The position numbers were made by a program, and so were the translations under genes. A stretch of 64,000 nucleotides of DNA from Ulva prolifera (Eukaryota; Chlorophyta; Ulvophyceae; Ulvales; Ulvaceae), in assembly GCA_023078555.1 (NCBI GenBank), contig CM041204.1:3130430-3194429 (forward strand), in the 5' to 3' direction. The number at the start of each line of letters is the position of its first letter. The first letter of the stretch is position 1. Positions 1 to 56,409 of this stretch are shown one piece after another. The notes under the pieces were generated by a model. That model searched no databases. It saw only the letters and a program-made list of their open reading frames with translations, and was not told the origin of the DNA.

Positions 1-2351
1 GGTGACGGCAAACGCAAACGCGGTCGCGACGGCCTCAGCGGTGGCGTTGATGTTGGCCTCGCTGACGACGCAGGCCGTGGTCTCGCCGGAAATGACGCAG
101 CTGGCGGAGATGTCAGCGATCGCGCGTGCCATGGCCGTGGCGATTGCCTCGGCAGTGACAGCGACGGTGACGTTGGCGTCCTCGCTCGCGTCGCACGCCT
201 CGGCGATGATGTCGACGATGATTTCTGTCTCTGCGTCCTGCACGATGCTGCCGTCCGTCGCGTTGACGTTGACGATGCACGTGCTGTTGCCGGAGCCGCC
301 GCCGACGATGCCGATGAGGTCGCCGCTGCAGCCGTCGTTCACGTCAGCCCGCGCCGTCACCAGCACCTGCATAGCCACAGCTGCTTACTCAAAGTTCCTG
401 AATCCATGCCTCAACAGGACGCGGCATGTTCATTCGTGTGTGTACGTGTGTTACAAGGACAATGGGGCAGGCAGGACCGCGGGCAACGATCAGGCCTAGG
501 GGAAGCATGGATATGTTTTTCACACAGTGTGTGTCTGCGGATCGCCAGGGCGTCGTTACAGCCCCCGCTTTTGGGATTTGGATGTGGCAGATGCTAGATG
601 GTGCAGTACACTCTAGGCAGCTGAGACTCGGGGGCTCGAGCGACTGTATGTGCCTGGCAGAGCGGAACAGGCCTATAGTGCACATCTATCCGTGGCAGGG
701 CAGGGGGCACATGCATACGGCATCGACATCCCTACACAGGACGAGTGTGGCCCTCAAGGCGCTACAGCGGCAGGTTGCAATCTGCAGATCACCCTCTGGG
801 CGCCAGGCTGCGCACCTGCGCAAATGCGGTTGCGGTTGCGCTGACAATGCGCGCGATGAAGTCGTTTGCCGTCGCGTTGATCGAGCCGCCCTCTGCGAAG
901 CCCTGGAGTGTCACCTCCGCCACGGCGGTCGCGTTGAGGTAGATCTCCTCAAAGGTGTCGGCCACAAAGTCGATGGCGACGTCGCAGATGTCGCAGATGC
1001 TGGCCTCGGCCAACGCGTCCGCGAACGACGATGCGATCGCAAACGCCTCCGCCTGAGCCACGGAGCGGCCGTTCACAGTGAACGATGACTTGCCCTCTGC
1101 ATCCCATGAATGATCGCATGAAGGGTTGTGCATGTTTGCAAACGTGCCAATGTACATGTGTATTGCAACACAATTGGTGAGCCATTGAAATTTATCACAT
1201 ACATCTGGGGTCTGATTCCAGACAAATTCTTGCATCTGGTGGCGGGTCTGCATCATCAGGTCAGACAGGCACATGAGACCATGGCCAGTGCTTCCGAAAT
1301 AGCTATACGATAGTAGCAGCGCAGTTCAATTACTCTGTATGGGCGGTGCACCATGGTTTCAGTGCATGTGCACTGACGTACATTTCCCCTGCGTGACGGG
1401 CTGGAATTCCACTGAACACAGTGGTGATGGCGCACCAGCGGAGCAGTCGGCGGAGACGGCGGCGATGGCCGTGGCGGTGGCCGTGGCGATCTCAGTCGCA
1501 GTGGCGAGGGCGTTGGACTCGACGGAGATGACACTGGGATCGTTGCAGATGTACGCTGTCGCCTCGGCAGCTGCACCACAGCACAGCACAGGCGGTCATG
1601 TGCGCGAGGCAATTCGTGTCTGAGGCAGTGTCTGAGGCAGCACGGGAGGGTATTGGAGTGTTACTGTACAGGTTCGAATGATCAACCCTCCCAGCTACAC
1701 AAAACTGTGCATAGTTCTGTCATCCAGGAGCCTCACATGTATGCACACGTTCGCATAACCAAGTGCAAGGCTGCATTCAAGTTGAGGGCAGAGTCACCGA
1801 ATTGGTAAGTTGGCGGAGGGGGGAGGGGGCTTGAGCTAGCGCACCTACAGCCACAGCCACCTCCTGTGACTGAGAGTTGGCGAGGCCAGAGCCCGAGATG
1901 GTGCAGGAGGCCCGAGAATCTGCACGCGAGAGCCAGCTGTGGTCAGCGGTTGGCCAGCTTGGCACAGAGTGTGGCACAGAGTATGGCCAGGCACTGAGGG
2001 GCAGCAGCTGTGCACCACACAGGTACGCCAGCTGACTCCAAGGCTAAACACAGACCAAACTACTCGTAGCCACTGGGTCTGCCACTGCCTCTGCGAGTTG
2101 TGTGGGAACAGGTGTTGTGGACTCCATGGACACCGGTCCCGGAGATTGAAGTCGTCAAAAATCATATGGGCATGGGTAGTCGAGTGTAAGCCATGAACAA
2201 ATACAAGTTCAAAGCAGAGAGGGGCGGCCTCGATAACTCTGTCCTTGTGACACATGGAGAGGAGCGTGCCTTGGGCCGCAGCCGAGGAGGCGGCTAGCAG
2301 GGCGGCCACAGCCGCATGTGGCAGCATCCTCATACCAGAGCTGCTTGCCAT
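1..2351 (-). CDS. Secreted Ala-rich cysteine protein, paralog 1 (5' part, runs off window)
   Basis: Minus-strand gene cut by the left edge. Proposed coding exons, 5' to 3': 2351-2270, 1919-1845, 1570-1436, 1096-816, 366-<1. Intron phases agree at every junction, giving 313 residues before the window ends. The first exon encodes a signal peptide (hydrophobic AAVAALLAASSAAAQ core, about residues 12-27). Exon four has the family signature FTVNGR near its start and a CxxC pair (CDIC). The last visible exon is rich in alternating Ala-x-Ala and has N-glycosylation-type sites (NST, NVT, NAT). Compared with the two intact paralogs, it joins what are separate exons five and six there into one. The first intron would use a GC donor (CAAG|GCACGC) at the same position and phase as the GT donors of the paralogs. 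The proline-rich and eight-cysteine end would lie left of the window. Function is unknown; secretion is inferred from the signal peptide. Confidence 0.83.
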
Positions 2352-5300: not shown

Positions 5301-5793
5301 GGATGTGAAAGTTTGCTTTGAAACGCTTCCTCCCAGTGGGCAGATATTTGGCTCCCTCTGGGAAACAGCATGGTCATGGCAGTTGAATTGATTGGATCAG
5401 GATGCATAGCCCAGCCTAGCCCAAGCACGAGGGTTGACTAAGATGAGGTTGCAGGCCTAGGGTCATTCATAGTCATGGCGGCAGCCATGGCGAGTGGCCA
5501 TGGGGTGCCAAATTGAATCTTCATGATGAACTTCCCCTCGCCCAGAAAAAGGCTTTTGGTTTTCACAGCTAGACTGGCATGGGTTGGAGCATCATGATGG
5601 TGGATGCAGCAGCAGTCTGCTGTGAGGGCTCAGTGTGCACCATGTGAGTGTCTCAGGATGTGTCCAGGGACGGGCCAATCAAATGGGTTAACCCAATTGG
5701 TTCATTTGATTGCGGGGATTCATGCTGCACTTGCATCCTGAGTTGTTCTGGAGGTGGTCCTGTGGCTGTTGCAGCGCGTAGTCATGTTCATGG

Positions 5794-8924: not shown

Positions 8925-8948
8925 CCCCCCCCCCCCCCCCCCCCCCCC
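8925..8948. repeat. Poly-C tract (24 nt)
   Basis: An uninterrupted run of C, followed by further C-rich sequence to about 8962. It creates artificial poly-Pro and poly-Gly frames on the two strands. Confidence 0.95.
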
Positions 8949-10905: not shown

Positions 10906-10913
10906 ATTGCAAG

Positions 10914-11858: not shown

Positions 11859-14800
11859 TCATTCGGCCGTCGGGGTGCAATCCAGCACGGGGCCGTGGAA
11901 AAGATATCCCGACTGCGGGCGGCAGCGGCCGCTGTCGCTGAGGCTGGAGAATGCCTTGCACACGTGGACGGTGCCGTCGCTGCCGTCGCAGCAGGGCGAC
12001 ACGCCGCTGACACCCCACCCGGAGCAGCTCTGGTTCGGCGCAACACACGCATTGGCGCAGCCACTTGAGCCGGGCGTTGGCGCCGTCGGCGGATTTGCCG
12101 GTACCGGGGAGGGGGGGAATGGGGGGGTGGGGAGGAGGACCGGCGGGATGACCGTCGGCGGGTCGACCACGGGGGGCGGGAGGGGCGGTTGAGGGGGGGC
12201 CGGGGTGTCACCCGCGCCCACGCCGATAAGACCGCTCGCATCGCAAGTTTTGTCGATGTTCACTTGAACCTGCAATCATGTTGGCCATGTGTGTGTATCG
12301 TGGCCGTCACGGGGGGGGGGGGGGGGGGGGTTGGTTACGTATTGACCGCGAGGGCAGCAAGGACGTGCAGCACTGTGCTTGCCGCTCAAGCGGCCAGAGT
12401 GACATCCTCCTGCATAACCCCATTACACCTACGGCTGGGTAAGCTCTACGCTGTTTGCATGCGTGGCCAGAGAGGTCTTGACCCAAAACTGCCCATACAC
12501 ATACACCCATGCACTTCTACGGCACGAGTGAGCGCCGCCCATGGACAGTGCGGCATGCATGGCGGGATTAACGAGGGGGGCAAGGGGGGCGAGGGGGATG
12601 GGGCAAACGCACCGACAGGACTGAGATCGCGATGGCTTTCACGGCAGCTGTGGAGAGATCCGCCTGGAACGCCGAAAAGTCGGTGATGCCTGTGCCCTCT
12701 GCACACGCAACCCCTGTCACCTCTGGCCTGCTGCGTAGGCAACGTTAACGCTGCAGCACCGAGCAAGAGAGCATCACAGCCTTCAGCATCAGTGGGAGTT
12801 TCAAATGAGACACGAGAGTCAGGTTATCTGCAGCCTGGGTGCCGCAAAAACATAGCAGTTGCCGCGATCGACATTCTGCAATGATCACCCGGACGTTCCG
12901 CATCCAGACCTGGGCAAGATATCGGCAAGGCCTATCCCGAACTATTTGTGCTCCCGCTTGAACAATGCTCGAGTGTACTGCTTGATTTTGCTCAGCTGCG
13001 GTAACGCATTCCGTGGCGTGCGGGGAAACTCACGGTTTGAACGTGACACCTGAAAAGCTACTTTATGCAGTAAGATCCACCTGCAGCCGCAAGGCAGCCT
13101 TGACTGCGGCGTCACAACCGATGAATTTCGACAACGTGATCGTGTCAGCCGCACTTGAGCTGCTGTCGTGACAACGTGTTGCTCAATACATGTGGCATGC
13201 ATGGGCCACCTGCCACATGCTCAGGGAAATCGGTGTGGTCACCATTACAGTGTGGCAGTCAACATTCCACTTCCCGAGGCACCAGGAATATGTGTTGGCA
13301 CTTGGCTGACAGAGTTGGAGGCAGCGCCGGGCTGGCATGCCTCACCCATGGCCTTGAACAAGGGCTACCTTTGAGTGGCTGTATCTCTCTGCTGGAGCCT
13401 GCAGTGACGAAAAAGCAGTTTTTTGGGCCTAGACAACGCCTAGTACCTTTTCCTTAGCGCCAGCTACCTGGGAGGACTGTTGCGGATCCAGGGAACCAAA
13501 AATTACCGCAATCCGAGAAGTATGCACTGAGATATGGATTGTTGAGTGCACTTGGTCTTGGGCCCCACTTGGAGCTGCACCGAGAGCCCGACTACACGAG
13601 CACGCAGATCTGCGGCTGCGTCGCGACGAGGCGCGCTACTGCGCAGATGATTAGACCTTTATCTATAGATGCTCTGCGATCAGTTTTGTCTCCTGAATTC
13701 TTGGATGTGTTACGTGCTGCATGTCCTTCCGTGACCCATGCATGTGGGGACCTTCAGTCCGGTTGAGATGCACCACGTCAGCTCGACACTGAGACTCGGA
13801 CGTCCACCGCTACGCCGATAAATGTACCAGCACGGATTCCTGGCACGGCTGTCGGTATCCTCGGGGCGCTGGTAGTATAGTCTACGCCGCCGCCGGCTGT
13901 AAGGGCGTATCTCTGACGAGGCCGCTGATTCACGTGCTATGTTTTTGCGGGAGCCTGTGCGTTGGGCTGCCAAGCATCACACAACGTTGGCTGCCGCCAT
14001 ATAAACGAGCCAACGTACTCATATATATTCAAAAATCTGATCCCGAGAGTCTTGACGCACATGCATGAGCTATGCCAGCTTTACCGCTCGAGCAGCGAGT
14101 CGCTATTCAGCAGCTCCACCGCCTGGGAATCGCACACGGCAAGATTGCGAAGGATCTCGTCGTGCACATATCGACAGTCAAGAGATGGGCAGCGAGGGAC
14201 GACAAGACCGGCTCTGTTGCCCTGGGCACGTCTCCCGGGCGGCGTCGACTGCTCTCACGGGCAGCGTGCCAGAGAGCTCTGGGTCTGCTCCTGTCGGGAG
14301 AAGCTGTTGGCGCAAGGTTCGTCGCTATGCAGATCTTCAGTGAGGGGCTGTCAACAGTGCGCGTCTCGCCGTGCACGCTGATTCGTGCCGTCAAGCGCTA
14401 CACTGCTGAGAAGGGCGAGACCCTCATGTGCTTGCGTGGCAGACCGCCGAAGGTGATGACTGTGCTCACGCGCGCTAAGCGCAAGCAGTTCGCATCCAAG
14501 AACCTCGGCCGCAGCTGGAAGCACGTGATGATCACCGACCGTTGTCGCTTCTATTTTAGGTTTCCGGGGTCGCGTGTTTCTCGAACGCGCTGGGCTTTGA
14601 GGTCGTTGAAGCACGCAGAGGGCGTGTTCACTCCGAACAAGCCCATGTGCTACAATGTTTATGGTGGCATTACTCGCTATGGTGTGACCAAACTGCATGC
14701 AGTGACTGGCACCAGCAAGAGGAAGTCTGTGTACACAAACCAGAAGGGCCAGGTGGCCAGGAATATCACCAAGGGTGAGTATAGGGATGTTTTACAGAGC

Positions 14801-17800
14801 ACTCTGCTGAAGGAGGGCAGGAGGATTTTTTCAGGCCAAGGCATGCATGGCTTTGTGCTGCAGCAAGACAATGATCCTTGCCACACTGCAGCTCAGGGCG
14901 TGGTCCAGGCCTGGAATGCAAAGCCTCGTGGTGGGGTGGTGACTGTTTTGCAGCAGTGGCCAGGAAATTCTCCAGATTTGAGTCCTATTGAGAACGTGTG
15001 GGCCTGGGTGGATGCTGAGGTGGCACAGCAGGGCTGCTCAACTTTTGAAAATTTTTGCAAGGAAGTGGATAAGACATTTGCAAGGATCCCTAGGACAATG
15101 CTAGAGAACCTGTTTGATTCAATTCCTGAGAGACTGCAGAGATGCCTTGACCTTGATGGGCACAAGACAGGGTGGTGAGAGGGAGGTTGTGCATGGCCAT
15201 GTGGAGGGCACCTATTGTGTCTGACACTCTGTGTGTACACAGACTTGTAAACTAACAATAGGATGCCTGCTAGCCATCACTGCTGCAATATATCATGCAC
15301 TGTTATCATCTGAGGCCATCTAGTTGTGAATCAATTGCATGATCACCAATCAGGATGGCTTTTAAATAGAGTGAAGCCCACAAGCAGCTGGCCTCATGCA
15401 AAACCAAGCAGCACAATCTGCACCAAGCATGCTGCATGCTCACATTCATACATGCACAGTCATGTTGGATCACCACAGATATGTCTTGCATGTACTGTGG
15501 TGGCAGTTCCTGATCACAGGCTGCTGATTCAGATGAGTGAGGAGGATCACAGCAGGAGTCTTCCTTGCTGAGCAAGAGCACAGCCCCTTGCTTGTAGAGT
15601 GCCCATCACACCTGTGCCAGTGCATGCAGCACCTGCCTCCTCAGACCTCTGCAGACCGTGTCCTCTTGAAACACACACAATAGAGGACTCATGTGTTCAC
15701 CTGCCAAGTGGCTGCAGCTAATTGTGTCAGGGGAGGATGCATGCATTGATGGCAGTGGGTTGGTGTGCATTCACCCAACACCCATGCTGTCAGCCCAATC
15801 TGGCACTAGCATGATAGGCCTGAGGCACTCAGTGGAACAGGATACATTCCTGAGGTCTCTGTGATGTTCCTGGTGTGTGTGTGCATGGTGGATGGTGGTG
15901 CTGCCACTCTGGAAGGTGCTGGTGAGCTGTGCTGCTTGTGAAAGCACAAGGCCTCCATGGGCTTGGCCAGTGCATGCAGCATCTGCCTCCCCAGACCTGT
16001 GCAGACCCAACCCTCTTGACACACATCTACTAGTGGTCTAATATGTTCACCTGCCAAGTGGCTGCAGCTGATTGTGTCAGGGGAGGATGCATGCACTGAT
16101 GGCAGTGGCTTGGTGTGCATTCACCCAACACCCATGCTGTCAGCCCAATCTGGCACTAGCATGATAGGCCTGAGGCACTCAGTGGAACAGGATACATTCC
16201 TGAGGTCTCTGTGATGTTACTGGTGTGTGTGTGTGCATGGTGGATGGTGGTGCTGCCACTCTGAAAGGTGCTGGTGAGCTGTGCTGCTTGTGAAAGCACA
16301 AGGCCTCCATGGGCTTGGCCAGTGCATGCAGCATCTGCCTCCCCAGACCTGTGCAGACCCTGCCCTCTTGACACACATCTACTAGTGGTCTAACATGTTC
16401 ACCTGCCAAGTGGCTGCAGCTGATTGTGTCAGGGGAGGATGCATGCACTGATGGCAGTGGCTTGGTGTGCATTCACCCAACACCCATGCTGTCAGCCCAA
16501 TCTGGCACTAGCATGATAGGCCTGAGGCACTCAGTGGAACATGATACATTCCTGAGGTCTCTATGATGTTCCTGGTGTGTGTGTGCATGGTGGATGGTGG
16601 TGCTGCCACTCTGAAAGGTGCTGGTGAGCTGTGCTGCTTGTGAAAGCACAAGGCCTCCATGGGCTTGGCCAGTGCATGCAGCATCTGCCTCCCCAGAGCT
16701 GTGCAGACCCTGCCCTCTTGACACACACCTACTAGTGGACTAATATGTTCACCTGCCAAGTGGATGCAGCTGATTGTGTCAGGGGAGGATGCATGCACTG
16801 ATGGCAGTGGCTTGGTGTGCATTCACCCAACACCCATGCTGTCAGCCCAATCTGGCACTAGCATGATAGGCCTGAGGCCCTCAGCGATGCATGATGAATG
16901 CCCGAGGTCTCTGTGATGTTCTTGGTGTGTGGGTGAATGGTGGGTGGTGGTTCTGCCACTCTGGAACGTGCTGGTGAGCTGTGCTGCTTGTGCAAGCACA
17001 AGGCCTCCATCGGCATGCAGCATGGCGTGTTCGCGAGGACAACATTATATGCTTCATACAAATTCGCTTGCGTATATATTGATTACATGGGCTCCATAGC
17101 GTTTATAGCTGCATACCATTCGAAGCCCGCGGGATTCTGCAGTGTGAGGACCAATTCCGGCAGCTGGAACGCTGCTGTTCAGCGCCCAGAGACAACGAAA
17201 TTAACCAGTTGTTCTGCTACATCCGGTGCCACGCCTGTTGCGTGCAGCCGATTTCTCGCGTCTGCGTTGCTACATTGTTGGGTAATCGAATCACTGACGC
17301 TCTGGGTGACAAATGACAGATACAAGGAGAAAACTGGAATTATCTAGACATCCTGTGTGTCGGAGATTCTGTCGTGGCATCGGACTGGGTGCCGCAAAAA
17401 CATAGCAGTTGCCGCGATCGACATTCTGCAATGATCACCCGGACGTTCCGCATCCAGACCTGGGCAAGATATCGGCAAGGCCTATCCCGAACTATTTGTG
17501 CTCCCGCTTGAACAATGCTCGAGTGTACTGCTTGATTTTGCTCAGCTGCGGTAACGCATTCCGTGGCGTGCGGGGAAACTCACGGTTTGAACGTGACGCC
17601 TGAAAAGCTACTTTATGCAGTAAGATCCACCTGCAGCCGCAAGGCAGCCTTGACTGCGGCGTCACAACCGATGAATTTCGACAACGTGATCGTGTCAGCC
17701 GCACTTGAGCTGCTGTCGTGACAACGTGTTGCTCAATACATGTGGCATGCATGGGCCACCTGCCACATGCTCAGGGAAATCGGTGTGGTCACCATTACAG

Positions 17801-20800
17801 TGTGGCAGTCAACATTCCACTTCCCGAGGCACCAGGAATATGTGTTGGCACTTGGCTGACAGAGTTGGAGGCAGCGCAGGGCTGGCATGCCTCACCCATG
17901 GCCTTGAACAAGGGCTACCTTTGAGTGGCTGTATCTCTCTGCTGGAGCCTGCAGTGACGAAAAAGCAGTTTTTTGGGCCTAGACAACGCCTAGTACCTTT
18001 TCCTTAGCGCCAGCTAATTGGGAGGACTGTTGCGGATCCAGGGAACCAAAAATTACCGCAATCCGAGAAGTATGCACTGAGATATGGATTGTTGAGTGCA
18101 CTTGGTCTTGGGCCCCACTTGGAGCTGCACCGAGAGCCCGACTACACGAGCACGCAGATCTGCGGCTGCGTCGCGACGAGGCGCGCTACTGCGCAGATGA
18201 TTAGACCTTTATCTATAGATGCTCTGCGATCAGTTTTGTCTCCTGAATTCTTGGATGTGTTACGTGCTGCATGTCCTTCCGTGACCCATGCATGTGGGGA
18301 CCTTCAGTCCGGTTGAGATGCACCACGTCAGCTCGACACTGAGACTCGGACGTCCACCGCTACGCCGATAAATGTACCAGCACGGATTCCTGGCACGGCT
18401 GTCGGTATCCTCGGGGCGCTGGTAGTATAGTCTACGCCGCCGCCGGCTGTAAGGGCGTATCTCTGACAAGGCCGCTGATTCACGTGCTATGTTTTTGCGG
18501 GAGCCTGGCTGCACCGCCCGTAGGGAGTGAGCTCTGTGGCTCATGCGCAAAAGTCGCTGCAAGCCATGCTGATCGACGCGTCTCGGCGCATCTGCTATGA
18601 GCAGCACTGTACACACACACATACACATACGTACCCATGCGCCACCACTACACAGTGCCTGATTGCATAGTGTGACAAAGATGGAGGCGGCGAGGCGTGC
18701 AGCACCGCGAGCAGCCAGCAAGCAGCGCCAGAACACAACCGCCAGCCTGACCCATCGCACCCCCACGCCACAGTCACAACCAGCACATGCATATCCCGCA
18801 CACTCCCCAACCATCTACATAAATGTCCAGAGTGCAGAGTGTTGCCGCACCAGTGCAGCCGTCCGCCAGCGCCGAGGCGGCCGCGCTGACGATCGCCTCC
18901 TCCACATCCTTGAGCATGAAGGTGTCGGAGAATCGGAAGTTGCAGCCGTGGGGGATGCAGTTGCCGACGATCCCGCCGACCCCTTCAGCCACCGCGGTCG
19001 CGACAGCCTGCATGCAGCTAAGACCACTATGGCGCAGCTCCTAGGGGGCTGCTACTGTGTGTGCGACAGCAGTACGGAAAGCCTTTCGAATTGCGCATTG
19101 ATATGTATGCGTCGCATGTGCTGCGCATGCATGTGTGTGTGCCAAAAGGTCGGGTGCACGGGGAGGTGGTAGCCCGCGACCGGCAGCACTGCCAGGCAGT
19201 GCCTTCCGATCGTCTGGATGCCACTGTGTAACACGATTGCACAGCGAACATGCGCCCACGTGCTGGCCACTGGCCAGTGGCCAGTCCATGGCCATACATT
19301 CACCGACGCATGGTCGACCGGAGATGAGTCACCTATGGTACCGGTGTCGGCATGCATGGGGTACGGGTGTCAGCAGGCATACTGCATGCGGCAGAATTCC
19401 GTTACGATTCATCAAAGCTGTCAGATGCATATAGCACAACAACCTCGAGGAGAGACTGCCCTGGGCTGGGGCGCACGTTTGCAATGACTTCGACTTCGGC
19501 GTCGCCGCGCGCACAACCCGCAGAGTTTGCGTCGGACGCCTCGCACGCGCCCACCACCTCCGCGATGGCCAGCGCGGACGCGCTTGCAACCTCCTGCATC
19601 AACACACGAGCCTAGGATACATGCTGCACATATGTGTGCTCGCATCAGGCGGTTTATGCTGACAGCACCAGCACCAGTCCAGTCCCGGGCACTCGCAGTT
19701 ACCGTAACGCAGTTACCGTGACGGCTTCGCACTGAGTCCACTGACAGGAGGGGTCCATGCATGGCAGACGCACACAGCAGCGTGGCGCTAACCATCACGA
19801 TGTCTTTCCCAATTCATGTCACTGTGTGATAGAGGACTTGCCCCACAGCTAGACGCAGCAGCCCAGGGCTCATGCATGGCTGCCTGTTTCGGCAGCTCTG
19901 TTGGTTAGCATATATCGCCTCAAAGGGCAGAAGTGACAGAACACCGAATCGAAACTAGCGGTGTACAGCCGCTTGGCCTATGTAATATATTGTGCACTCG
20001 AGCCTGCGTCCAGGGACAGGGGAGAGGGGGGTGCACGTATGCGTACCTCAGCGAACAAATCCGTGCTGTCAGAGTCCGGGCCATTGCAGAAGTCGACAGA
20101 CACCGCTCCCAGGGCCGCAGCAATCTTGCTCTCGGACACCTTGTCAAACAGCCCGTTGACTTCGATCTCACACTCCACGAAGGAGTCTGCCCGGTCAGGG
20201 TCCCCGGCGGCGACCTGGGCACCGATGGTGCACCCTGAGAGGGCATTCGCCTGCGCCTCCGCAATAAACTGCAAACAGGGCACATTCTCGCTACAATTGA
20301 ACGCCCAATCCAAGCTAGGGTCAAGCGCCAGACATTGCCAACTAGGCCCCGCAATTCCGGACCTGCCCTGTTCCGATTGAGGATGGCCTCTAGTCTAAAC
20401 AACACCACTGCTGCCGATCATGGTCCGCGGAGCTTCACATCAGGCCCGCTATTCCGTGTCATACCCGGCATATGGCATACGTCACAACGCACCCGGCACA
20501 TTATACCTGGCATATGGCACAGCCAGCTGGACGCAGGCCTGTGGCAGGCAAAGGTATATATGCGGCGCAGGATCAGAGAAGCATGCAGCCAGCGAGAATG
20601 CTGCGTGTGCTGGATGCTGCGGCGTTCGACTTCATTGCCGTACACGTACTCGTGCCTGACTTGTGCCGGATTGTGCGGTATACAACTGCCCCTCCGCGTC
20701 CCTGACAACCCTACACTTACGGTGTGTACTACATAGGATGTGGTCCTCATGCATGCGTTGAAGGTGGGCCGGGGAGGCAGCGCACATGCGCAGCGCCGGC

Positions 20801-21682
20801 GACCGTCTCAGTCACAATCTTGTCTTCAAACGCGCTCACGTGGATGCTCACGTCACCAGCTGCCAGAGTGGCCTCCAGTGAAACCTCGTTGTTCGAGACC
20901 GCCGTAGCCACGACCTCCTGGATGTTCTCCATGACGATCTGGACCGCCGAGCTGCACTGGCCGCACACCTCAGCGGACGCGAACAGCGACGCGACCGTCT
21001 TGAGCACGCTGCGCGCTGTGAACTCCGCGTAGCTCTGCCCAAACACCGTGAAGCCCGCTTGGCCGGCTGCATGCATGGTGTGCTCTGAAGAGGTGTCCGA
21101 GTCGCTGTCATGTGGTCGTTTACATTTGCGGGGAGTTGCCGCACATTTGATTCCGTTTGTGTGCAACATAGGTGGTCTGCAGCCCCTGGTACACAGCATG
21201 AGATCTGCAGATCTCATCGCCCGGTCTCTAGAGACCAGAAGAACAGAGGTCAGGCCAGCGCATGGCACAGCACTCAGGCGGACTGCAGCTGCATTTGCGG
21301 CACAGCTAGCCACGATACTCGACCCGAACATTCATTCAATGCACCAGCTGATAAACAAAATCTTGGCGTTGAACTTTCACTGTTCGCCTGGGGCCGCCGC
21401 TGTGACGAGGGTGAGTGCCATGGGGGAAAATGGCGCAAAACAAAGCACAAGCGGCAGGACTCACAGGGCGGTTTCACAAAGGACTGCCTCAGCGGAAAAT
21501 GGCAGCACTGTGGCATGTATGGCAGGGGCTGGCGCCGAAGCGCAGACACATGGAAAGTCCAGTGATGGTACTGTACATGTCGTCGACACCGAAAGTTGGT
21601 TGACACTGAAAGCGCATGACACACAGCAGGGGGGAGGGACGCGGACACGTGCACGCAGCAGTAGCAACAAAGACAGAGAGTT

Positions 21683-21721
<39 letters not shown>

Positions 21722-22789
21722 GAACCTTTGTAGCAATCCACCACGACGCTTGTTGCGGCTTGCGCGACGGCCGTGGCCACTTCCGTAAGCACCAGATCAA
21801 TAGCCTGGGGCCCATCGTCATGGTCGTCACACACGACCGACGCAAGTGTCTCCGCTGCACGCTCCTGTAGGTCATACACGGGCAAACATGTGCAAAGCAA
21901 GTACTTGCTGGCATGTCCTGTTGTGAGTCAAACACAAGCTCGTATCTTCCTGTTGTGAGTCAAACACAAGCTCGTAACTTCAACCTCGGGAGCCTCCCTG
22001 TTTCTGCATCGGAGTTTGAGTATTGACGTGGTAGCGGCCACAGAGCGAATAGCCAGCACCGTAGGACGCAGGTGATGCTGTGTGTGCTGGTGCTCACTAG
22101 CTGTGGAGCGCAAGACCCAGGGCTGCCCGCGGCCGTAGCTCCACGTGTGCACCCCACCAGACCCACAGGCAGCCATTTCAACTTGTACCTCTATACAGCA
22201 GATACTATACAGGCTGGAGGTGTCCGTACATAGGAGGACTCTGCAACTTGCACGGTGTCGCCTGTAACCTTGCTAGATATCGCTATAGATATGATACCGT
22301 ATAATGACGTGACGTCATTTTTTTAGACAAGCACATGCACAGGTGACAGGGCGCACCAACTTCAAAGAGCTTGAACTCCTCGGTCAGCTTTGCGCCAGTG
22401 GCGTACGCCGTCACTGAGCATGATGCGATCGACTGAGTGCTTCCGGTGGTCCTCACAAACACTGCATACAAACATCGCTGCTGAATGAGCGGCCACCCCG
22501 GTTCCCGCCAGCCATCCTGTGCAGAACAAGCAGGTGCTCAACACCGTAACCATGCGAAGTGATATATGGCAGCATGCAGCAGCAAAGTGTGTGCCACCGT
22601 TGGCATGGAGGGCAGTTTCGGCGTCAGGGGCGTCTCCTGTGCGACGAATGCAGCGGTGCGAGACACAGATCTGAGGCTCCAGGTTCAGCGCTAGCTGTAG
22701 ACCTAGGCTGTCGCACCTCCTTGCACAGCCTGAATGCCTACCGCGGTGGCTGCGGCGCCCATCATGGCACCCTGAAGTAGCTTTACCAT
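11859..22789 (-). CDS. Secreted Ala-rich, Pro-linker, eight-cysteine protein, paralog 2 (complete)
   Basis: Nine exons, 5' to 3': 22789-22717, 22461-22357, 21854-21726, 21066-20786, 20268-20047, 19593-19477, 19007-18851, 12698-12613, 12269-11859 (1581 nt, 526 aa). Phases match at all eight junctions. Every acceptor ends TGCAG; six donors are GTGCG and the others GTTCT and GTACG. Residues 1-24 are a signal peptide (MVKLLQGAMMGAAATAVG core). Residues 103-196 hold FTVFGQSYAEFTAR and a CGQC pair. Residues 197-390 are Ala-rich with spaced cysteines. Residues 413-457 are proline-rich. Residues 461-521 form the cysteine module C-x3-C-x6-C-x10-CC-x9-C-x11-C-x14-C. Intron seven (12699-18850, 6152 nt) contains a 5.7-kb composite transposon; intron three contains a 36-nt homopolymer. 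The architecture suggests an extracellular or wall protein, loosely like pherophorins in having a proline spacer, but I see no pherophorin motif. Function unknown. Confidence 0.87.
12311..12330. repeat. Poly-G tract (20 nt) in last intron of paralog 2
   Basis: On the coding (minus) strand this is a C20 run lying about 40 nt upstream of the final acceptor at 12270, inside intron 12270-12612. It may act as a pyrimidine tract. Confidence 0.9.
12835..13957. repeat. 1123-bp repeat, left copy, with terminal inverted repeats
   Basis: It starts ctgggtgccgcaaaaac and ends in the near-complement, ttttgcgggagcctg: 20 of 23 terminal bases pair, including a perfect 16-bp block (ccgcaaaaacatagca). It has the structure of a terminal-inverted-repeat element. 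I count five mismatches and no indels against the right copy, so duplication is recent. Open frames inside are short and unrecognised. Confidence 0.93.
14072..15178 (+). CDS. Tc1/mariner-family DDE transposase
   Basis: Intronless, 368 aa, starting at an ATG. Residues 1-60 form a helix-turn-helix of the type that binds transposon ends (EQRVAIQQLHRLG, then IAKDLVVHISTVKRWA), followed by a second DNA-binding region with a GRPP hook (about 122-125). The catalytic triad is D156 (in MITDRC), D266 (in QQDNDPCHTA) and E307 (in SPDLSPIENVW). These motifs are diagnostic of the Tc1/mariner superfamily cut-and-paste transposases. Forty residues separate the second D and the E, against 34 in classical Tc1. 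The frame is undamaged, so the enzyme could be active or was so recently. It lies antisense inside an intron of the surrounding minus-strand gene. Confidence 0.93.
   Translation: MPALPLEQRVAIQQLHRLGIAHGKIAKDLVVHISTVKRWAARDDKTGSVALGTSPGRRRLLSRAACQRALGLLLSGEAVGARFVAMQIFSEGLSTVRVSPCTLIRAVKRYTAEKGETLMCLRGRPPKVMTVLTRAKRKQFASKNLGRSWKHVMITDRCRFYFRFPGSRVSRTRWALRSLKHAEGVFTPNKPMCYNVYGGITRYGVTKLHAVTGTSKRKSVYTNQKGQVARNITKGEYRDVLQSTLLKEGRRIFSGQGMHGFVLQQDNDPCHTAAQGVVQAWNAKPRGGVVTVLQQWPGNSPDLSPIENVWAWVDAEVAQQGCSTFENFCKEVDKTFARIPRTMLENLFDSIPERLQRCLDLDGHKTGW
15615..17020. repeat. 350-bp tandem repeat, about four copies
   Basis: The landmark cccatgctgtcagccc recurs at 15781, 16131, 16483 and 16833, giving periods of 350, 352 and 350. 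The first and last units are the most diverged; the middle ones are nearly identical, with small changes such as tgtgtgtgtg length. The array fills the space between the transposase gene and the right terminal repeat of the 14002-17105 transposon. Minus-strand frames repeated across it are by-products of the repeat. Confidence 0.95.
17385..18507. repeat. 1123-bp repeat, right copy, with terminal inverted repeats
   Basis: Direct repeat of 12835-13957 at a constant offset of 4550 bp, with five mismatches seen. It begins at ctgggtgccgc and ends at gggagcctg. The near-identity of the two copies is what one expects if they were duplicated together or homogenised recently. Confidence 0.93.
21685..21720. 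repeat. Poly-G tract (36 nt) next to a splice donor of paralog 2
   Basis: On the coding strand this is a C36 run beginning five bases into intron three, directly after the donor GTTCT at 21725-21721. This is the one donor of the family with an odd sequence. Tract length may vary between individuals. Confidence 0.93.
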
Positions 22790-40369: not shown

Positions 40370-41301
40370 GTCTCGCCGCGGAAAACCCTATCGGGAAAAC
40401 GTATCGTCTGCGGGGCGGCAGAAGGCAGTGTGCGAGGTACCGCGGCCGGTACGCGTGCATTCACAGACTTGGTCACCACCGTCAGGCTGGCAACACGGTG
40501 AAGGTACGTCAAAGCCACGCTCGGCGCAGCGGTGGAACTGCGGCACGCATATGCGGTAGCCGCAGGCGGTGGGGTCAGCCGAGGGAGGGGTGATTGGGGG
40601 GCGGAGCTCTGGGGGAGAGGGGACGAGGACGTCCGGGATGACCGTGGGGGGGGAAGCCGATTGGCCAAGACCAGAGAAGCCGATTGGCCAATGGGCTTCT
40701 TCATGAATCCGCGCTGCTTCGGTCGACTCCGAGGCCATCCGATATTGCCGACACGGATGTCTCGTCGAAGTTGCCTGTGATGGATGCCTTCAAGGATCAT
40801 ATCGCTATTTGCGACGGCCGTGGCGACGGCCTCCTGCAGCCTCTCCACAACAACGTGCACCGCGTGGCCGAGCACACGCTGCAGATCTCCTACTCGAGGG
40901 AGAGCTCCGTGACCGTGTTGAGGATGCTGCGCGCCGTGAATTGTGCGTACCCTTGCCCATTCACTGTGAAGGAAGCTCTGCCAGCTGCATGGGCGAGCTC
41001 ATGTAGAAGGAAATGGGACACCTGTGCATCATGATGTTTTTTGTGTCGTTGCAGGTGTACTAGTCTTGAGCTCGTGAAGCAAGGCAACGCGCCGCAGCTA
41101 GCGAACTGCACAATCCGCATATCACAGCGCTAGCAGCAGGGCGTGATCAGCAGCAGCCAGCTGGGAGCGCACTTGCGTAGCAGGCTGCTGTTGCGTTTGC
41201 AGTGGCCTCTGCAACGGCAAAGATGACCGCCTCACAATCGGATTCTAGATCGATCGGGCTGCCTTGTTTGTCATCGCACAGAGAGACCGAAGCGTCTAGC
41301 A
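40370..41301 (-). pseudogene. Truncated family pseudogene (paralog 3)
   Basis: Two family exons are recognisable: exon three (41301-41173, 129 nt, intact, CDDKQGS region, donor GTGCGC) and exon four from 40984, with FTVNGQGYAQFTARSIL. Exon four has an in-frame TAG at 40892-40890, where the 50526-56409 paralog has a serine codon, and a one-base shift about 15-25 bases later. Homology breaks off near 40770. The sequence then jumps to a copy of the last exon (PPTVIPDVLVPSPP linker, then the CCQPD and AFCRPADDTF part of the cysteine module), which ends at a stop after DDTFSR near 40388. Exons five to eight are missing and I found no exon one or two upstream. A 20-bp tandem agccgattggccaa repeat (about 40657-40692) sits near the deletion junction. 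Confidence 0.82.
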
Positions 41302-46040: not shown

Positions 46041-48428
46041 ATGCCATTCATAGACGGTCCTGTGTGCTTGACGCGCTCAGCCCCTGACAAGAGATACGCA
46101 GGACAGCTTTTGATATTTGATGTTGTTCCCCCTGACGCTGTTTCTCGATCTGGCGTCTTGTCGTCCATCGCAGAAGCGAGCGGTGATGGCTTGACGCTGC
46201 CCGACTTTGTGACTCTGGCAGAGTTTGTGATATGGAGCAGCACCATCAGAGATAAAGAAGTCATTTCAGACTGCAAGGATATGGCGCACGCATGCACCGT
46301 GCTGAAGGTGAGAGGTCGAGTCATCAGCTCTGAACATCCGATGCAGCTTGAGTGCCTGTCGAGGATCCTCAGGGACAGCTCGTGATCTGATACGAACATT
46401 GAGCCTCAGTAGAATTTAAGAGACTGCTACAGTCTCGCAGTTGGCGCCTGTGGTACGGCAAGGCTGATCGAACATGATGTGTTGCAGGCTGCTGATGCTC
46501 TGGACGATCACTGTGCTGGTGACTGGATGGACGTCTCGGTGAACATCTTCCGTGAGCAGTGTGTGGCCCACCACCGCGCGGGGGGCTGCGGTTTGCCGCA
46601 GGAAATTTCAGATGGTTTCTCAAAACTACCAGATCACCTGCAGCAACGTGTGATCGAGGCAGTGACCTGCTGCCACACATCAGACCACCTCCTCGCAGTG
46701 TGGCTGGACCTGCTGCCGAGCCGCCACCACGCTGCCGTCGTTTCAAGGTTCATATCAGACGGTCCAAACAGCAGTCTCATCGCCCCTGACGAGATCCAGT
46801 CCCTCCCCTTCCTCAAAGCCCTCAAGCTGCTCCCACAGTCGCCCTCTTCGCTGCTTTCTCTCACTCTAGACAGCTCTCTGGAAGACGTGGTTTCCTGCAA
46901 CTGTCGCCCTGATCGCATCCATCCACGAGCCGCGCCCATGCTTGACAGAGTGGCAGCGCTCGCCACGGCGCTGCGCCACCACTCCGGCCTCACCAGCTTG
47001 CGCCTCGATCCATTCTGCGGTGAGGCCTCCCTGCAGGCTCTCGCTCCAGCCATTGCCACCCTCACAGCCCTGCAGGTCCTGCACCTGGGGCAACCGTACC
47101 ACTGTAGAATTCCCCACAGCGCTCTGCCGCTGCTGAAGGCCGCCCTTCAGCCGCTGTCAGCCCTCCAGGAGCTCTGTGTGTTCATCGGGATGCCGTCGGA
47201 CCACAAGCTGCCTGCCAAGCACCCACGCCTCGCCGACAGCGCAGACCTCAGCACAGCGACGGATGCCCCACGTCACTGTCTGGCCGAGCTGCTCTCTCCG
47301 ATGACGGCGCTCAGTTCTCTCAGAATCGATCAACGGTGGGGTAAGCGGCGCGTCACGGCGACGCGCCCGCTGAGCCTGCCGTGCCTCAGGCACCTGGACA
47401 TCACCAGCGGGTGTAACAATGTCTCCAGCGACCTCCTCAGCCAGATGACTGCCCCGCTTGCTGCCCTTGTGATCACAAATCGACTCGAGACACAGTGGAG
47501 TGTCGATGATGTCCCCCTAGCTCAGCAGCTGTGGAGCAGCCTGCAGAAGTTTGTGCTGCTCAGAAGCCTGGACATCGAGACGCGCATGTACGCTCACAAC
47601 GACCAACTGGAGGACGAACTGCTTGCCCTGGCCCCTGCAGCTCTGGCGCCTCTGGCGCGCCTCCAGGAGCTCAGGTTCGGCGGGGAGTTTCTGGTCGTGC
47701 TGCGTGTGGTTCAGCAGCTCGCTGTCAGTGAGTCTGGGGTGCAGCGACTGAAGGTGGAGTGCGGTGGGTATCGCGAGCGCGCAACCGCGGACAGTTTCCG
47801 GGAGTTCCTGTTCAGCCTGAGCCGCTTGCCGCTGCGGCACCTGCACTTGACCTTCTACCAGCGTGCCCTCGGCCCCAAGCTTCCGGGGCTTGGGGCCCTG
47901 CAGCCGCTGACGCAGCTCACAGCCCTGCGCATCTACGGCTGGCGCAGGTGCCTGCGCCGCGCAGAGGACTGCGGCGCGCTGGCGGGCATGCGGCAGCTGC
48001 AGAGCCTGTGCATCTGTGAGTTTTCGGCGCCGCCGGCGCTGCAGGCCGACTGCGTCCGCACCCTTGGGGCGCTGCCGGCCCTCACCGAGCTGGCGCTGCA
48101 GCCACGTGATGTCGCCGATGGTTTTCAGGCCACGTTTGTGCAGGCCCCGCCGGGTGCTGCATGGGCAGCGCTGCAATGGCTGGGGCTGTACCCCGACGGC
48201 CCGGGGCAGGCGGAGGCAATCGCGCGGGCTGTGGCCGCGTTCCCCGCACTCAAGGAGCTGATGCTTGGGGATGATCCTTACAGTCCCGAGCTCGGTGACG
48301 GGGAGGGGGGTGAGGATGGATACTGTCCTGAACTCGAACGAGCTCTCTGTGTTGCGGCAGATGCGGGGTTTGCAATCGAGGTCGACTGTGATTGGGGACG
48401 GTTTGACTGGCACAGTGCGCGGGCGTAG
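46041..48428 (+). CDS. Leucine-rich-repeat protein with Skp1/BTB-like N-terminus
   Basis: Two exons, 46041-46307 and 46488-48428, with a 180-nt intron (AAG|GTGAGA donor, TTGCAG acceptor), both in phase 0; 735 aa. The first exon carries the ATG. Residues about 20-110 follow a Skp1/BTB-like pattern: SGVLSSIAEASGD, LPDFVTLAEFVIWSS, then LKAADALDD just after the splice point. Joining the exons across the intron completes this helix motif. From about residue 170 on there are many leucine-rich repeats (e.g. LTSLRLDPF, LQVLHLG, LRHLDI, LQELRFGG, LTALRIYG, LTELALQP, LKELMLG), giving a horseshoe for protein binding. There is no signal peptide or transmembrane segment, so a cytosolic or nuclear location is likely. 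An adaptor role in ubiquitin ligation is plausible from the domain pair but not shown. Confidence 0.85.
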
Positions 48429-50525: not shown

Positions 50526-53500
50526 CTAGGTCGCGATTGTACAGGGCACCGTGGCGCCGCGGAAGAACGTGTCGCTTGCGGGCCGGCAGAAGGCGGTCTC
50601 CGAGGTGGTGCGGCCCGTGCGCTTGCATACGAAGGCCTCGCTGTCGTCGGGCTGGCAGCATGGCGACACGCTGGACAGGGCGCCGCCAGCGCAGCGGCGG
50701 AACGGCTGCACGCATGCGTTGGCGCAGGCGGAGTCATCGGCCGGGGGGTCCGGGGAAGGGACGGCGGTGATGGTGGGGGGTGGGAGGCCTGGAGGGGAGG
50801 GCACGAGGACGTCCGGGATGACCGTGGGAGGGTCCACAATAGGAGGGTCAGGAGGCGACACCGTCGGCGGTTCGATTGGATTGTCGAGGTTTTGCTGAAA
50901 GCTGAGGATGCAGTCCGATGTGGCTTGGATCGGCTGCAGACACACGGAACTGTTGCCGCACGCGCACTCACTGCTGCCATGCTTTTGGCTAATCATTCCG
51001 CTGTTGGAACGTGGATGCCAACCAGTGGCTGGGGGAGTGCGGACGAGGTGTATCGAAGAGTGACAGCGGGGAAGTGGCTGGATCAAGCTTTGTGCACACG
51101 AATGGTACACCGCACGCATGCATGGCTGTAGCGTGCATAGATGTACACAAGTGTAAACATGTAGCTGAAGTTAGTTCAGCCTCCGATGCTGCAGCATGTA
51201 TGTACATACACATGTGTAGGCTGGCAAGTGAGGATGCATGCATTCAATACGCTAGCAATAGTCCAGTTAGGCAGACCTCGGCCCCAAGTGTACTACGATA
51301 GAGATCGATGATGGCGTGCCATGGCCGATGGGCCCCCACTTCATGCAATCTCAAGTTGAGGACATTCAACGCGCAGCGCTGACAGGATCGAGCGTCTTTA
51401 CCAACTCGCACGGCAACAGGCTTAAGAAAAATATATTCAGGAAATCGACTGAGGGCGTGTATGTATGAGAGCCTGCATTTTTCATCAGAACAGGCATGCA
51501 GGACCCTGCAGGGAGCTGGATACTGCGCGAGGGGACGCCAGGGTGCATGCGTGTGCCACAAGTGCGAGGTGCACTTGCACCACTGGCAGACACCGTGACG
51601 CAGGTGCGGTGCGGCCGGAGGCAGGCCTGGGCACACTGGGCAGACAGGTGCACACCTTGAGGAGAATCTCGACCATAGCCCGCACCACCAACTCGTTCAC
51701 AGCCTCTGCAAACGCTTCAAAGTCCACGATGCCGACACCCTCTGCACCACAGCACTGCCCCTGTCACGCAGCCCATACTGTGGCGCGGTCTGGCGCGGAG
51801 CGGAGTCATGCGGGTCTGATATATACACACTCAGCAACACTGTGCCCCAGCAGCATTGGCAGCAGAAGCAGCAGCTGCAGCAGCGGTGCAAGCATCCCAA
51901 GACAAACGCTCCTACGGCCCCGAAGCTCGAGCTCGCGCGGCGCCGGCACACCGACGCTGCCGCTCTACCATCAATGCTAGAGCTCGAGGGGACACGTGGG
52001 CTACGCTACCGCGTATACGTACTGGCGTGCATACAGGAACGCATGCTCTTGCGCAAGAGCATCGCCCACTCACACACACTGTGTCAGGGCACACAATGAG
52101 ACTTGTGCCACGCCAGGGGGACAACGCAGTGTGGACTGAGAGGGGGTGGCAACCAGTGCGCGCCGGTATGTGGACGTGGAATGCAGAGGTGCGGACAGCA
52201 GCGGCGGCGGCGGCGGCGGCGGCGGCGCACCAGTGCAGCCATCAGCAAGCGCATTGGCCAGAGCCTGTGATGTGAGGGTGAACACGGCGGTGATATCGAG
52301 AGGGTCGACGGGGCCCCTGCACTCCTCCAGAACGCAGCTCGCGTTGACGAGGTCGCCCACGATCGTGGTGATCAGCGTAGTTGTTGTCTGCACACATCAT
52401 GCATATGTCTCGGGACTGCGCACATGGGGAGACGATGTGTTGTTGCCCAAGCAGGTGCAGGGCAGATCGATCGAGCCTGTTTAAGGGGATGCAGCTGCGA
52501 CTCGAAGTCTACCCACTAGTGCTGAATCGCCATGCAGCATTGTTGGGGCTCCCATCCCGAAATTAGACATGATTAATCGGAATTGTTCTATGTGATTGGG
52601 CCCGACGCCCCAACACTACTAGCAGTACTGCTGCCCACGCTGATCGGCGGGACGGACATTAAGGTTTGTCAGATATCATCGATGCTGGAGGTAAGGTATC
52701 GATGTCACAGCTGCCACAGACCAACGCTGATGAGGAAACAGGAACAGGTGCACCGATAGATCGGCTTCGAAATTCGAATTGTGAAATTCCTGCATCGGCG
52801 CAGGCCTGCGGTTCAAATCTGCTACGGCGGACATTCTCACGTGTTCCTGCACATCCGACACCAGTACCACCATCCCAGCAAATACGTGATGAAGCATGCT
52901 GTGGATCTGCGCAATGGCGTATCATGCATACGATCCATTCTTTGGTGACAACCAGTAGGCTGCTCCTGAGGGCACACAGCAGATGAGCATCAGATTTCCT
53001 GGTGCATTTGTACATGAGGCCAGCCATCGGTGTCCCAAGCGGCCAGGGTTGAAAGGAAACGAACGGTCGCACGAGGTCGAACACCCGGCGAGATCAAGAC
53101 GATTGCAGCAGGCATGCATGCAGAGGCCCTGCAGCTGCCTTCAAATGCCAGCAGGTAATTGTTCAAACATGTTGTACAATGCCTGGTTTGCATACTATCG
53201 CCTCTTGGGTGAGACGCTAGCCAGATGAGCCCGGAACAGCTGTAGCGGCACACATCACAAAGGTGTACGGCCTGAAATCGGGCTTGGTGTGGGGGGGAGC
53301 GCACCGTGGCAACGGCGTCAACCTCTGCGAAGCCACGTGCACAGGCGGCTGAGTTCGGATCTGTCGATCTGCATGTTCCCACAATATCGGCAAGCGCCGT
53401 CGCTGTGGCGCGAAAGACTCCCTGCACACACCGTGACGTGCTGCGTCTTTTGATATATTCACATTCTGCCAAAAAATTTATGCTCTTCTGACGATCTATC

Positions 53501-56409
53501 GTTGTGGTCCGAACTCTGAGACTGCATGACCCCAACGCAGGAAAAGCGCAACCCAGCACTGCTGCACATGCGCCAAGCGTGATGATACATGTCCTGCCGC
53601 TGCCCTATCAGCCTGTAAGCCCCTGGCTAGGCCCTACTCGGTAGACCCGGGTCGGACCTGCGGCTGTAGTCTGCGCATATTCATTGGTGCCGCATCGATT
53701 CCGCAAGTGCAATGCACCGCAGCAAACTAGCGTGTTCATGATGGCGATACACACATCGGCCCTTGCCGGCGCACAAGCAGCGAGCGCAACTGGAACAACA
53801 CCTGTGGCTACAGGTGCTACCCAGGCCTCCAGCTAGCTCTCATGCATGCCTCGGTGAGGCCGATTTCCCGGCGGAGTCGTGCTGCAAAGAAAGTGCGGGT
53901 GTGCACGGTCGAGAGCATGGTGGGGTTCGGCTGTGCACGGTCGGGTATGCATACCCAAACTTTGAAGGAATGCGCCAAGGTGGCCACAGGGCACTTTGGC
54001 ATTGCTGACGCGAGAACACAAATGTATATGAACAGATTTGAAGCTGGCGCACCTCCACCGCGAGGATGACCTGATCCTCATCCGGCGTGTCACAGATGCT
54101 TGCAGTGAGGTCTACAGTTATTCCTTGTGTGAAGTCGTCGTCGAAGGTTTCCAAGACCCCGACGGTGCTGATGACGCACTCCGCGAGGGTGTTGTTGTCC
54201 GCGTCGGTCACGGCGACTTCGGCGTCGATGATGCAGCCGGACAGGATGTCTGCCTCAGCCGAGATGATGACCTGCACACCGTATGACAACCGCCTGGGCA
54301 CTCGCTGTGTGTATGCATATACATGATCCAAATCGAGCTTGAGGCCGACGGCCACAAAAGACTGCATACACACAAGCCTGCGTGGGCGATCAGGGGTCCC
54401 AATGGTGCACACACTCGGCAATGCCAGGTGCGTTGGGTATCTGCCGTAGCACAGCACAGCACAATTGCAGCGCCCGCAACACGTATGCTCAGAAGGTGCC
54501 GTCCAACTAGTACTACAGGTCCCTGTCTTTGAAATTTGCGCACGGACGCGGCGTGCATACAGAGGTGGAGGCCGCGCACGTTGGCGATGCCGGTTACCGA
54601 GACGTTCGCAACAGTCTCCGCAAAACCATTCGCGCTTGCCTCGATCCTGTCACCGGTGGCGAGGGCGCTTGCGTTCGCGGTTGTCGAAGGGTCTTCACCG
54701 CTTGCGATTCCAGTAGCGGATGCGAAGGACCCGTCATCTGTGATGGAGCCTTCAAGAATCACAGTGCTTTCCGCGATAGCGTTAGCAACGGCCTCTTGCA
54801 GGCTCTCCACGACGACTTGCACCGAGGCGGAGCACGTGCTGCAGATCTCCGACTCGAGGAAGAGCTGCGTAACGAACTTCAGGATGCTGCGCGCCGTGAA
54901 CTCAGCGTACCCCTGACCATTCACCGTGAAAGTCGCACGGCCGGCTGCACATGTGCGCATCACGTGAGCACAGGAGGGTGAGTCTCGAACATGTTTAAAT
55001 CTCAGGCAGAGCAACTACAGCCAGCCGACTGCACTATGTGTGCTCATGCATGGCAGGCACGCCAGGTAAGGGTGTGTGGCGACAGGCATGAACTCATGCA
55101 AGCAAGCGGCGCACGGGAATTCTTAAAAGCGCTGTGTTACGCGGTGCGGCTGCAGGACGTAACCAGAAGAATGCTGGGCCGCACTTGCATAGCATGCCGC
55201 AGTTGCATCCGCAGTGGCTTTGGCAACCGCAAATGCGACTGCCTCAAACGAATCTTCTATCTCGATCGGGTCGTCTTTCTGGCCATCGCACAGCTTGACC
55301 GAGGCATCCCCCACTGCACATGCCACGGCCATACCTCAATGACAGCACAAATCAACACATGCGTGTGCGCAAAACAGATGAATGCAGTATACACTGCATT
55401 ATATATGGGAGGGTGTTCACAGCCACGCAACTAGTTTAAGTTGCCCGGGTGGCGCGAGTGGTGAGTCCACGGCCTTGTGGGTGGGACGTCGACGTGCCGC
55501 CCGCCTGAGAACTTTCACAACATATGTACATGCCTGTACATGTGCCCAGGGTCACTGTACAGGCTACACACAACCATTCATCTGGGGGGAATACAGACCA
55601 ATGCGAAGGTGACGTCTGCAGAATCTGCACATGAGCATCATGCTCATGTGCAGCCCAGAACGGAGCCCGATCCGCAAATATGCACGGCAGATGAAGCCGG
55701 CTTTGTGCTGACGTTGCAGTGGAGCGGGTATGGCCACGGACCAGATTGAGACAATGCATGCAAAACCGCCGCACGCTGTGCTGAGGCCGCCTGCTGCGGC
55801 GTCGGGGGAAGGCATGCGCAGGGATGTGGGGGCAAGCGGTCTCGCACCAAGTTCCGCCAGAATCTGCTGCTCGACCAGTTGCGCACCGCCGGCAGATATG
55901 TTGATGGTGCAGCTCGACACGGAGTTGCTGTCTGCATGCACATGATCATGAGCAGCTTGTGAGCAGAGCCGGCTGGGGCCGGGCCTTGGCCATCACGGTG
56001 TGGAAAGGTTCCACGCTGGTGCTAGAGTGACATCGTCACAGATCTAGAGATTCTGCTGCTCTAGATATAGAGCAGCACGCTCTAGATCCGTTTGAACAGA
56101 TGAACTCACATCTACGTGGATAGTGTGCACTACTCACTCACCAGTACATGTATACCTGTAGAGCTGACTGTCAAAAAGTCATGCCACATCATGATGATCT
56201 GTACCTGACGCTAGCCACAGCGCTAGCTGTGGCTAAGCTTGGGCCACGGGGCCCATCACAATCAGCCGCACGCGAACGCGGCACTACATAGTTATTTTTA
56301 AATCTACTGCCAGCTGGACTGCCTGTGCCACACCTGCATGAGCCGCTGGCAGCCCAACGGCGGCGAGTACTGCAGCTCCCAGCACGACGCCAGTGACAAG
56401 ATTCACCAT
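50526..56409 (-). CDS. Secreted Ala-rich, Pro-linker, eight-cysteine protein, paralog 4 (complete)
   Basis: Nine exons, 5' to 3': 56409-56334, 55931-55848, 55313-55185, 54944-54580, 54271-54053, 53421-53305, 52387-52231, 51741-51656, 50933-50526 (1641 nt, 546 aa). Phases match at all eight junctions, all acceptors end TGCAG, and six of eight donors are GTGCG. Residues 1-25 are a signal peptide ending LPAAHA. Residues 97-218 contain FTVNGQGYAEFTARSIL, the pair CSTC and an Ala/Ser/Gly-rich tail. Residues 219-411 are Ala-rich with spaced cysteines (e.g. CIIDAEVAV, CARGFAEVDA, ALADGCT). Residues 432-476 are proline-rich (PPTV, PSPPG). Residues 481-542 carry eight cysteines: C-x3-C-x6-C-x10-CC-x9-C-x12-C-x14-C. 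This is the cleanest member of the family and the best reference for it. I do not recognise the family; secretion is supported by the signal peptide, wall or matrix function is inference. Confidence 0.9.
52201..52228. repeat. (GCG)n repeat just after a splice donor of paralog 4
   Basis: On the coding strand the donor GTGCGC at 52230-52225 runs straight into (CGC)n. The intact exon ends ADGCT; read-through would add a poly-Pro run. Confidence 0.9.

Follow-up and report, generated by a model that had tools for sequence, protein, structure and literature searches.

A 64,000-nucleotide stretch of the Ulva prolifera genome (assembly GCA_023078555.1, contig CM041204.1, here C9, positions 3130430–3194429; "the window") carries three genes and one broken copy of a large protein family, all on the minus strand. 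We propose, with moderate confidence, that this large Ulva family consists of secreted extracellular-matrix or cell-wall proteins, a reading that comes from sequence comparison. Full members have a core of about 375–410 residues with 14 conserved cysteines, then a linker, proline-rich in most, and a tail with eight cysteines that is a divergent relative of CBM1, the fungal-type cellulose-binding module (PF00734). Because the tail resembles a cellulose-binding module, the proteins are probably parts of the wall or surface coat, and their most likely role would be that of disulphide-stapled wall or matrix proteins. In the proposed scheme, an N-terminal hydrophobic segment would act as a signal peptide and lead to secretion; the cysteines would pair as disulphides, stapling a rigid core; the tail would tether the protein to a wall polysaccharide, either cellulose or another glycan; and duplication and loss would provide a wide range of variants of such a wall or surface protein. 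Ulva walls contain cellulose, according to an excerpt of a review (PMC10762512).

The sequence-only reading of the window had described four paralogs sharing one exon plan, with matching phases at every junction. For genes 2 and 4 this description holds. Gene 4 (50526..56415, minus strand, 548 residues) has nine exons, at 56415-56334, 55931-55848, 55313-55185, 54944-54580, 54271-54053, 53421-53305, 52387-52231, 51741-51656, and 50933-50526; its spliced translation is open, phases and splice sites are consistent, and a second ATG at 56409 is an equally possible start. Exon 4 (54580..54944) is the core module with a CxxC motif, and exon 9 (50526..50933) encodes the proline-rich linker and the eight-cysteine, CBM1-like tail. 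Gene 2 (11859..22789, minus strand, 526 residues) also has nine exons and an open spliced translation, with exons at 22789-22717, 22461-22357, 21854-21726, 21066-20786, 20268-20047, 19593-19477, 19007-18851, 12698-12613, and 12269-11859. The intron phases of the two genes are identical (1,1,1,0,0,0,1,0), and the exons of 129, 117, 157, and 86 nt, whose equal lengths the earlier reading had pointed out, are indeed seen in both gene models. All 16 acceptors end in TGCAG. The donors resemble GTGCG or GTGTG in 14 of 16 cases, and the two that deviate, GTTCTC of exon 3 and GTACGC of exon 5, are both in gene 2. A poly-C run of 36 bases (minus strand) lies at window 21685–21720, a few bases past gene 2 exon 3; because of this run and of a GTTCTC donor that differs from the usual GTGCG, gene 2 may be poorly spliced.

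Gene 1 (1..2351, minus strand, 513 residues) follows the plan at its first four junctions only. Its exons 1–4 (2351-2270, 1919-1845, 1570-1436, and 1096-816) match, whereas the last, which runs from 366 out of the window and ends about 600 bases beyond the edge, is a single exon that reaches the stop and holds the content of exons 5–9 of genes 2 and 4. The first donor of gene 1 is GCACGC, not GT. In a family gene at C7:2.074 Mb, a single exon covers what genes 2 and 4 carry as exons 6 and 7. Across family members, intron phases and positions are kept, and intron presence varies. The third copy (40.4–41.3 kb, minus strand) is a broken fragment: an exon-3-like stretch (41173..41301) is open, with proper splice sites and the 129-nt length of exon 3 in genes 2 and 4, but the exon-4 stretch (40740..40985; C9:3171169-3171414) carries one TGA and one TAG, and the stretch of linker and cysteine tail (40388..40654; C9:3170817-3171083) carries one TAG. 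A signal peptide had been read at the start of each intact gene. By Kyte-Doolittle hydropathy alone, gene 4 clearly begins with a hydrophobic segment (2.22), the signal being weaker in gene 2 (1.47) and gene 1 (1.25).

A search of public proteins with the spliced gene 1 product gave two matches among 1,724 candidates scored, both full-length relatives. P0008 is a continuous frame of 522 residues on a 2,558-base contig (E 1e-39, 79% identity over the aligned length); it runs uninterrupted across the first four junctions of gene 1 and, because it has no introns, would be a transcript. P0009 (jgi/Ulvmu1/5460/UM228_0002.1; E 7e-30, 68% identity over the aligned length) is a gene model that agrees at the same junctions, and its label, Ulvmu1, presumably stands for Ulva mutabilis. 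It has the 22 cysteines in register, the linker, and the tail; it differs in being an unnamed prediction, with no function given and an N-terminal extension in the model. The family had been called undescribed, and no name for it was found, but a full-length relative thus already exists as an unnamed gene model. The literature search found no title naming the family; the Ulva mutabilis genome paper lay outside its coverage.

The cysteine scaffold was compared over full length in six members: genes 1, 2, and 4, P0008, P0009, and the C7:2.074 Mb protein (hand-joined, with its signal exon not located and some junction residues approximate). At 24–79% identity, a cysteine stands in all six members at 21 columns and in at least five at 22; the total is 22 cysteines in five members and 23 in one, a register of 14 in the core and eight in the tail. 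The earlier view of a secreted-looking, modular Ala/Cys family whose structure has outlasted its sequence is supported. The motifs CxxC, ALADGCT, G.GI.DF.AF, and CANACV.P are all found in the translations of genes 2 and 4 by eye, as had been reported. Among the modules compared across the genome, a further motif, FTV.GQ.YAEFTAR, is limited to genes 2 to 4, with a close form at C9:4.140 Mb; gene 1 reads FTVNGRSVAQAEAFA. In every one of the six members, the strong alternation of alanine (pattern A-x-A-x) is greater than in any of 2,000 shuffles, by a narrow margin in gene 2 (0.65 vs. 0.58).

The tail has known kin. When a profile of six family tails and nothing else was compared with the PDB, CBM1-type structures took the first nine places among its ten hits (best E 0.0012, the rest 0.028–0.48), the tenth being unrelated (E 6); in the methylesterase and xylanase entries, we take the matched stretch to be the CBM1. 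When the same profile was aligned by hhalign to the true CBM1s of this genome, the match scored 93.9% with E 1.6e-7 in a single comparison. Nine places in the genome pass the Pfam cut-off for a true CBM1, two of which (C6:2682223 and C3:5246256) are also matched by a family tail query. In a mixed profile, A3, which includes true CBM1s and so is not independent evidence, cysteines C8, C18, C25, and C35 of the true CBM1 are invariant in 13 of 13 rows (one row joined across an intron). From these comparisons, the tail is a divergent relative of CBM1, descended from a CBM1-type module. It shares with CBM1 the cysteine framework and differs in having extra N- and C-side cysteines and, in several cases, a WDG-type extension. 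The sequence-only reading had named, as one result that would speak against it, a profile hit assigning the proteins to a characterised family. Such a match was found for the tail only, so that the statement of no named family stands for the core and has to be given up for the cysteine module.

Tails accompany cores far more often than chance would allow. The tail of C7:2.076 Mb, used as a query, finds 50 places in the genome. At 23 of the 54 core places then known, the 6 kb downstream hold a cysteine tail in the same orientation, against 0.19 expected (highest value in 500 random trials, 2; lengths of C1, C5, and C6 approximate), and these 23 places are served by 22 distinct tails. The count includes three of the five places given by a second tail query; of the remaining two, one duplicates a place among the 50, and the other, C3:8514830 (E 0.009), was left out.

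Several observations weigh against this account of the proteins. No tail is found within 6 kb at 31 of the 54 core places; that of gene 2 is 8.7 kb away, and at other places it may be too diverged or lacking. Every member tested falls below the Pfam CBM1 cut-off of 20.6 bits: among core-bearing members, C4:7703185 scores 14.8, P0008 13.5, and gene 1 12.5, there is no match in C7:2076478, P0009, or genes 2 and 4, and the best score among related modules, 16.5, is in another kind of gene. The binding face of CBM1 carries three planar aromatics, which are mostly replaced in the window genes. By eye in A3, one is left in gene 1 (F of NARFSQC), one in gene 4 (F before the third cysteine), and none in gene 2. 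Genes 2 and 4 may thus have lost glycan binding through their tails, and since the cysteines are kept and most aromatic contacts are gone, the ligand of these two tails, if any, has probably changed. AlphaFold gave no confident fold, either for exon 4 alone (predicted local distance difference test, pLDDT, 46) or for P0008 with an alignment of eight rows (pLDDT 40). Last, an excess of N-glycan sequons over shuffles, seen in gene 1, P0008, and P0009, is unclear in gene 4 and absent from gene 2.

The loss of the tail aromatics in genes 2 and 4 would also suit secreted proteins of another kind, which might use the CxxC pairs for metal or redox binding, or inhibit proteases, with the tail serving only as a knottin-like stabiliser. 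CxxC is present in all 12 aligned modules (the gene 4 module has an insert that the other 11 lack). We think this improbable, as some C7 modules have a spacing wider than CxxC and the remaining cysteines are equally fixed, which points to a disulphide scaffold.

The glycan sequons and the composition of the core bear on another alternative, that spores or rhizoids secrete these glycoproteins as an adhesive or mucilage, in which the alternating-alanine core would form cohesive sheets, disulphides would cure it, and the tail would stick to walls. Richness in cysteine and the period-2 alanine pattern agree with such a product, as does the sequon excess of gene 1 and its relatives, and Ulva spores anchor by glycoprotein adhesives, as a portion of PMC11966768 reports. 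However, gene 2 has a single sequon, located in the tail, and the low-confidence models show mostly helices in the core, though alternating alanines suit extended strands. We give this alternative little credence. A related idea, still less probable, is that the family represents a new class of matrix protein, stapled by disulphides, with alternating alanines and special to Ulva or its kin; its core might be silk-like, and some members would serve as structural glycoproteins in the adhesive of spores or holdfasts.

To return to the wall or matrix family that we favour, its extent is much greater than the window suggests. The genome searched comprises 88.9 Mb in 44 contigs; PF00504, the light-harvesting family, gives 38 exon-level matches in it, and a cellulose synthase search gives two (30.0 and 28.0 bits against a cut-off of 24.7). 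With five queries, among them exon 4 of gene 4 and one that also holds exon 3, the exon-4 module was found at 66 distinct places on seven contigs: 23 on C7, 18 on C2, 10 on C9, 7 on C3, 5 on C1, 2 on C4, and 1 on C6. This is a lower bound and counts module places, not intact genes: C7:2269906 is a second module in one gene, and one other place is the broken third copy. Each place scores at least 30 bits with its best single-sequence query, and 62 of the 66 score at least 40 bits. Composition is a hazard here, as reversed sequences reach 20.7 bits with a profile, a control that covers the profile search only. Several places that are weak with the first queries (about 24–30 bits) score 52–210 bits with a closer member. 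The splice sites provide evidence independent of such composition-prone scores. Among 42 distinct modules (from loci L001–L077), a GCAG acceptor in phase 1 stands at the expected place in 33, vs. 8% at random places, and a GT donor in phase 0 in 25, vs. 7%.

The picture of a family confined to a local cluster therefore does not hold. The window does lie in a minus-strand run of six places (C9:3120569-3198471), and 50 of the 66 places fall in 15 clusters, but the family is spread over the seven contigs, and gene 1 sits in a different branch of the tree from genes 2 and 4. In this quick tree of 40 genome modules and four public ones, few inner branches are firm (5 of 40 starred, 17 open). C9:4.140 Mb falls together with genes 2 and 4 (Shimodaira-Hasegawa-like approximate likelihood-ratio test, SH-aLRT, 93), and three C9 genes at 2.88–2.94 Mb fall together with gene 1 (SH-aLRT 90). 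In a second sub-family, mainly on C2, exon 3 runs on into exon 4 in a single unbroken match.

Among 39 modules of at least 30 bits, eight close pairs have ratios of nonsynonymous to synonymous divergence (dN/dS) of 0.11, 0.17, 0.23, 0.26, 0.34, 0.38, 0.61, and 0.63, with dS above 1 in two pairs; these values indicate that close pairs are under purifying selection. In a close pair on C3 (L019 and L020), five aligned blocks are long, and these correspond to exons 2, 3, 4, and 5 and to a stretch of exon 6/7; all other aligned pieces are short.

CBM1-like modules also occur in other genes. A dozen or so such tails are found close together at C4:3296984-3397038, adjoining cysteine-containing stretches of unknown type, of which one was checked and has no PAN match. 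At C3:9.950 Mb, three CBM1-like modules follow one another; a WDG-type stretch comes after two of these, and introns apparently lie inside the module. At C4:4.744 Mb, a weak PAN-like stretch, under the cut-offs (PAN_4 20.7 of 27 bits; PAN_2 20.6 of 21.1 bits), has a CBM1-like module upstream of it on its own strand. Such a combination, if carried by one gene, would recall the cellulose-binding lectins of oomycetes.

That last locus, the many and mostly clustered members, and the strong divergence around fixed cysteines can be read as signs of a diversified recognition or defence family, that is, secreted proteins resembling lectins, whose ligands would be glycans of microbes or of the alga itself, with many variants kept because microbes change. 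We consider this unlikely: close pairs are under purifying selection, with pairwise dN/dS of at most 0.63 (a measure that is not site-level), the proteins have no C-terminal hydrophobic stretch to hold a receptor, and the corresponding stretch of the cluster near C4:3.3 Mb is the one without a PAN match.

For the core, the searches made brought no known relative outside this group. Pfam gave nothing above cut-off for five core stretches and two full-length relatives (P0008 and P0009), NCBIfam likewise gave nothing above cut-off, and the PDB gave nothing credible, its hits looking like chance. A match of gene 1 exon 4 to Cas_CXXC_CXXC (E 0.0039; 17.7 of 21 bits) was taken as a chance match of the CxxC. 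With 8,000 candidates scored, an exon-4 profile found seven nameless public proteins at E 3e-28 to 2e-9; one of these is 98% identical to the gene 4 exon. The whole of gene 4, searched against 5.8 billion proteins, had no match at E ≤ 0.1 among 7,999 candidates scored. No relatives of P0008 were found in bacterial and archaeal genomes or viral contigs, using six short peptide patterns for each, a search that distant relatives would escape.

The window holds further features. In gene 2 intron 7, two direct copies of 1.13 kb (12828–13961 and 17378–18511), 4,550 bases apart, differ by 12 mismatches, and their ends look mutually inverted by eye, as in a terminal-inverted-repeat element. The same intron has a plus-strand frame of 369 residues (14069–15178) with weak DDE_3 and helix-turn-helix matches, below the Pfam cut-off, which probably encodes a Tc1/IS630-like transposase, and a tandem repeat of four copies of an approximately 350-base unit (15616–16967). 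Between family members lies a plus-strand frame of 671 residues (46413–48428) with weak leucine-rich-repeat matches. Two long Ala/Ser/Pro-rich open frames, also on the plus strand (31464–33050 and 33507–36923), have no Pfam match.

Among green seaweeds, Ulva serves as a model for the study of multicellularity, of growth guided by bacteria, and of fouling. In volvocine algae, the pherophorins and other wall glycoproteins form large secreted matrix families with proline-rich linkers. The Ulva family resembles them in its size, presumed secretion, and proline-rich linkers and differs in that its core has no Pfam match to any of them. A further likeness is to the GH9 cellulases of Chlamydomonas, Gonium, and Volvox, which are modular, with a proline-rich linker and a cysteine-rich C-terminal module; in an excerpt of PMC6032398, these putative carbohydrate-binding modules have PS-rich linkers and no CBM1 motif. 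The Ulva proteins, in contrast, have no glycoside hydrolase match, and their tail is CBM1-related. As far as the excerpt of PMC10762512 goes, the Ulva matrix is described in terms of polysaccharides, arabinogalactan proteins, extensins, and expansin. If our proposal is correct, a family with 66 module places, a 22-cysteine plan, and a CBM1-related tail would make up a sizeable unnamed share of the secreted proteins of Ulva. Its members would be direct targets for wall proteomics, and the core, with alternating alanines and no known fold, would be a good structural target.

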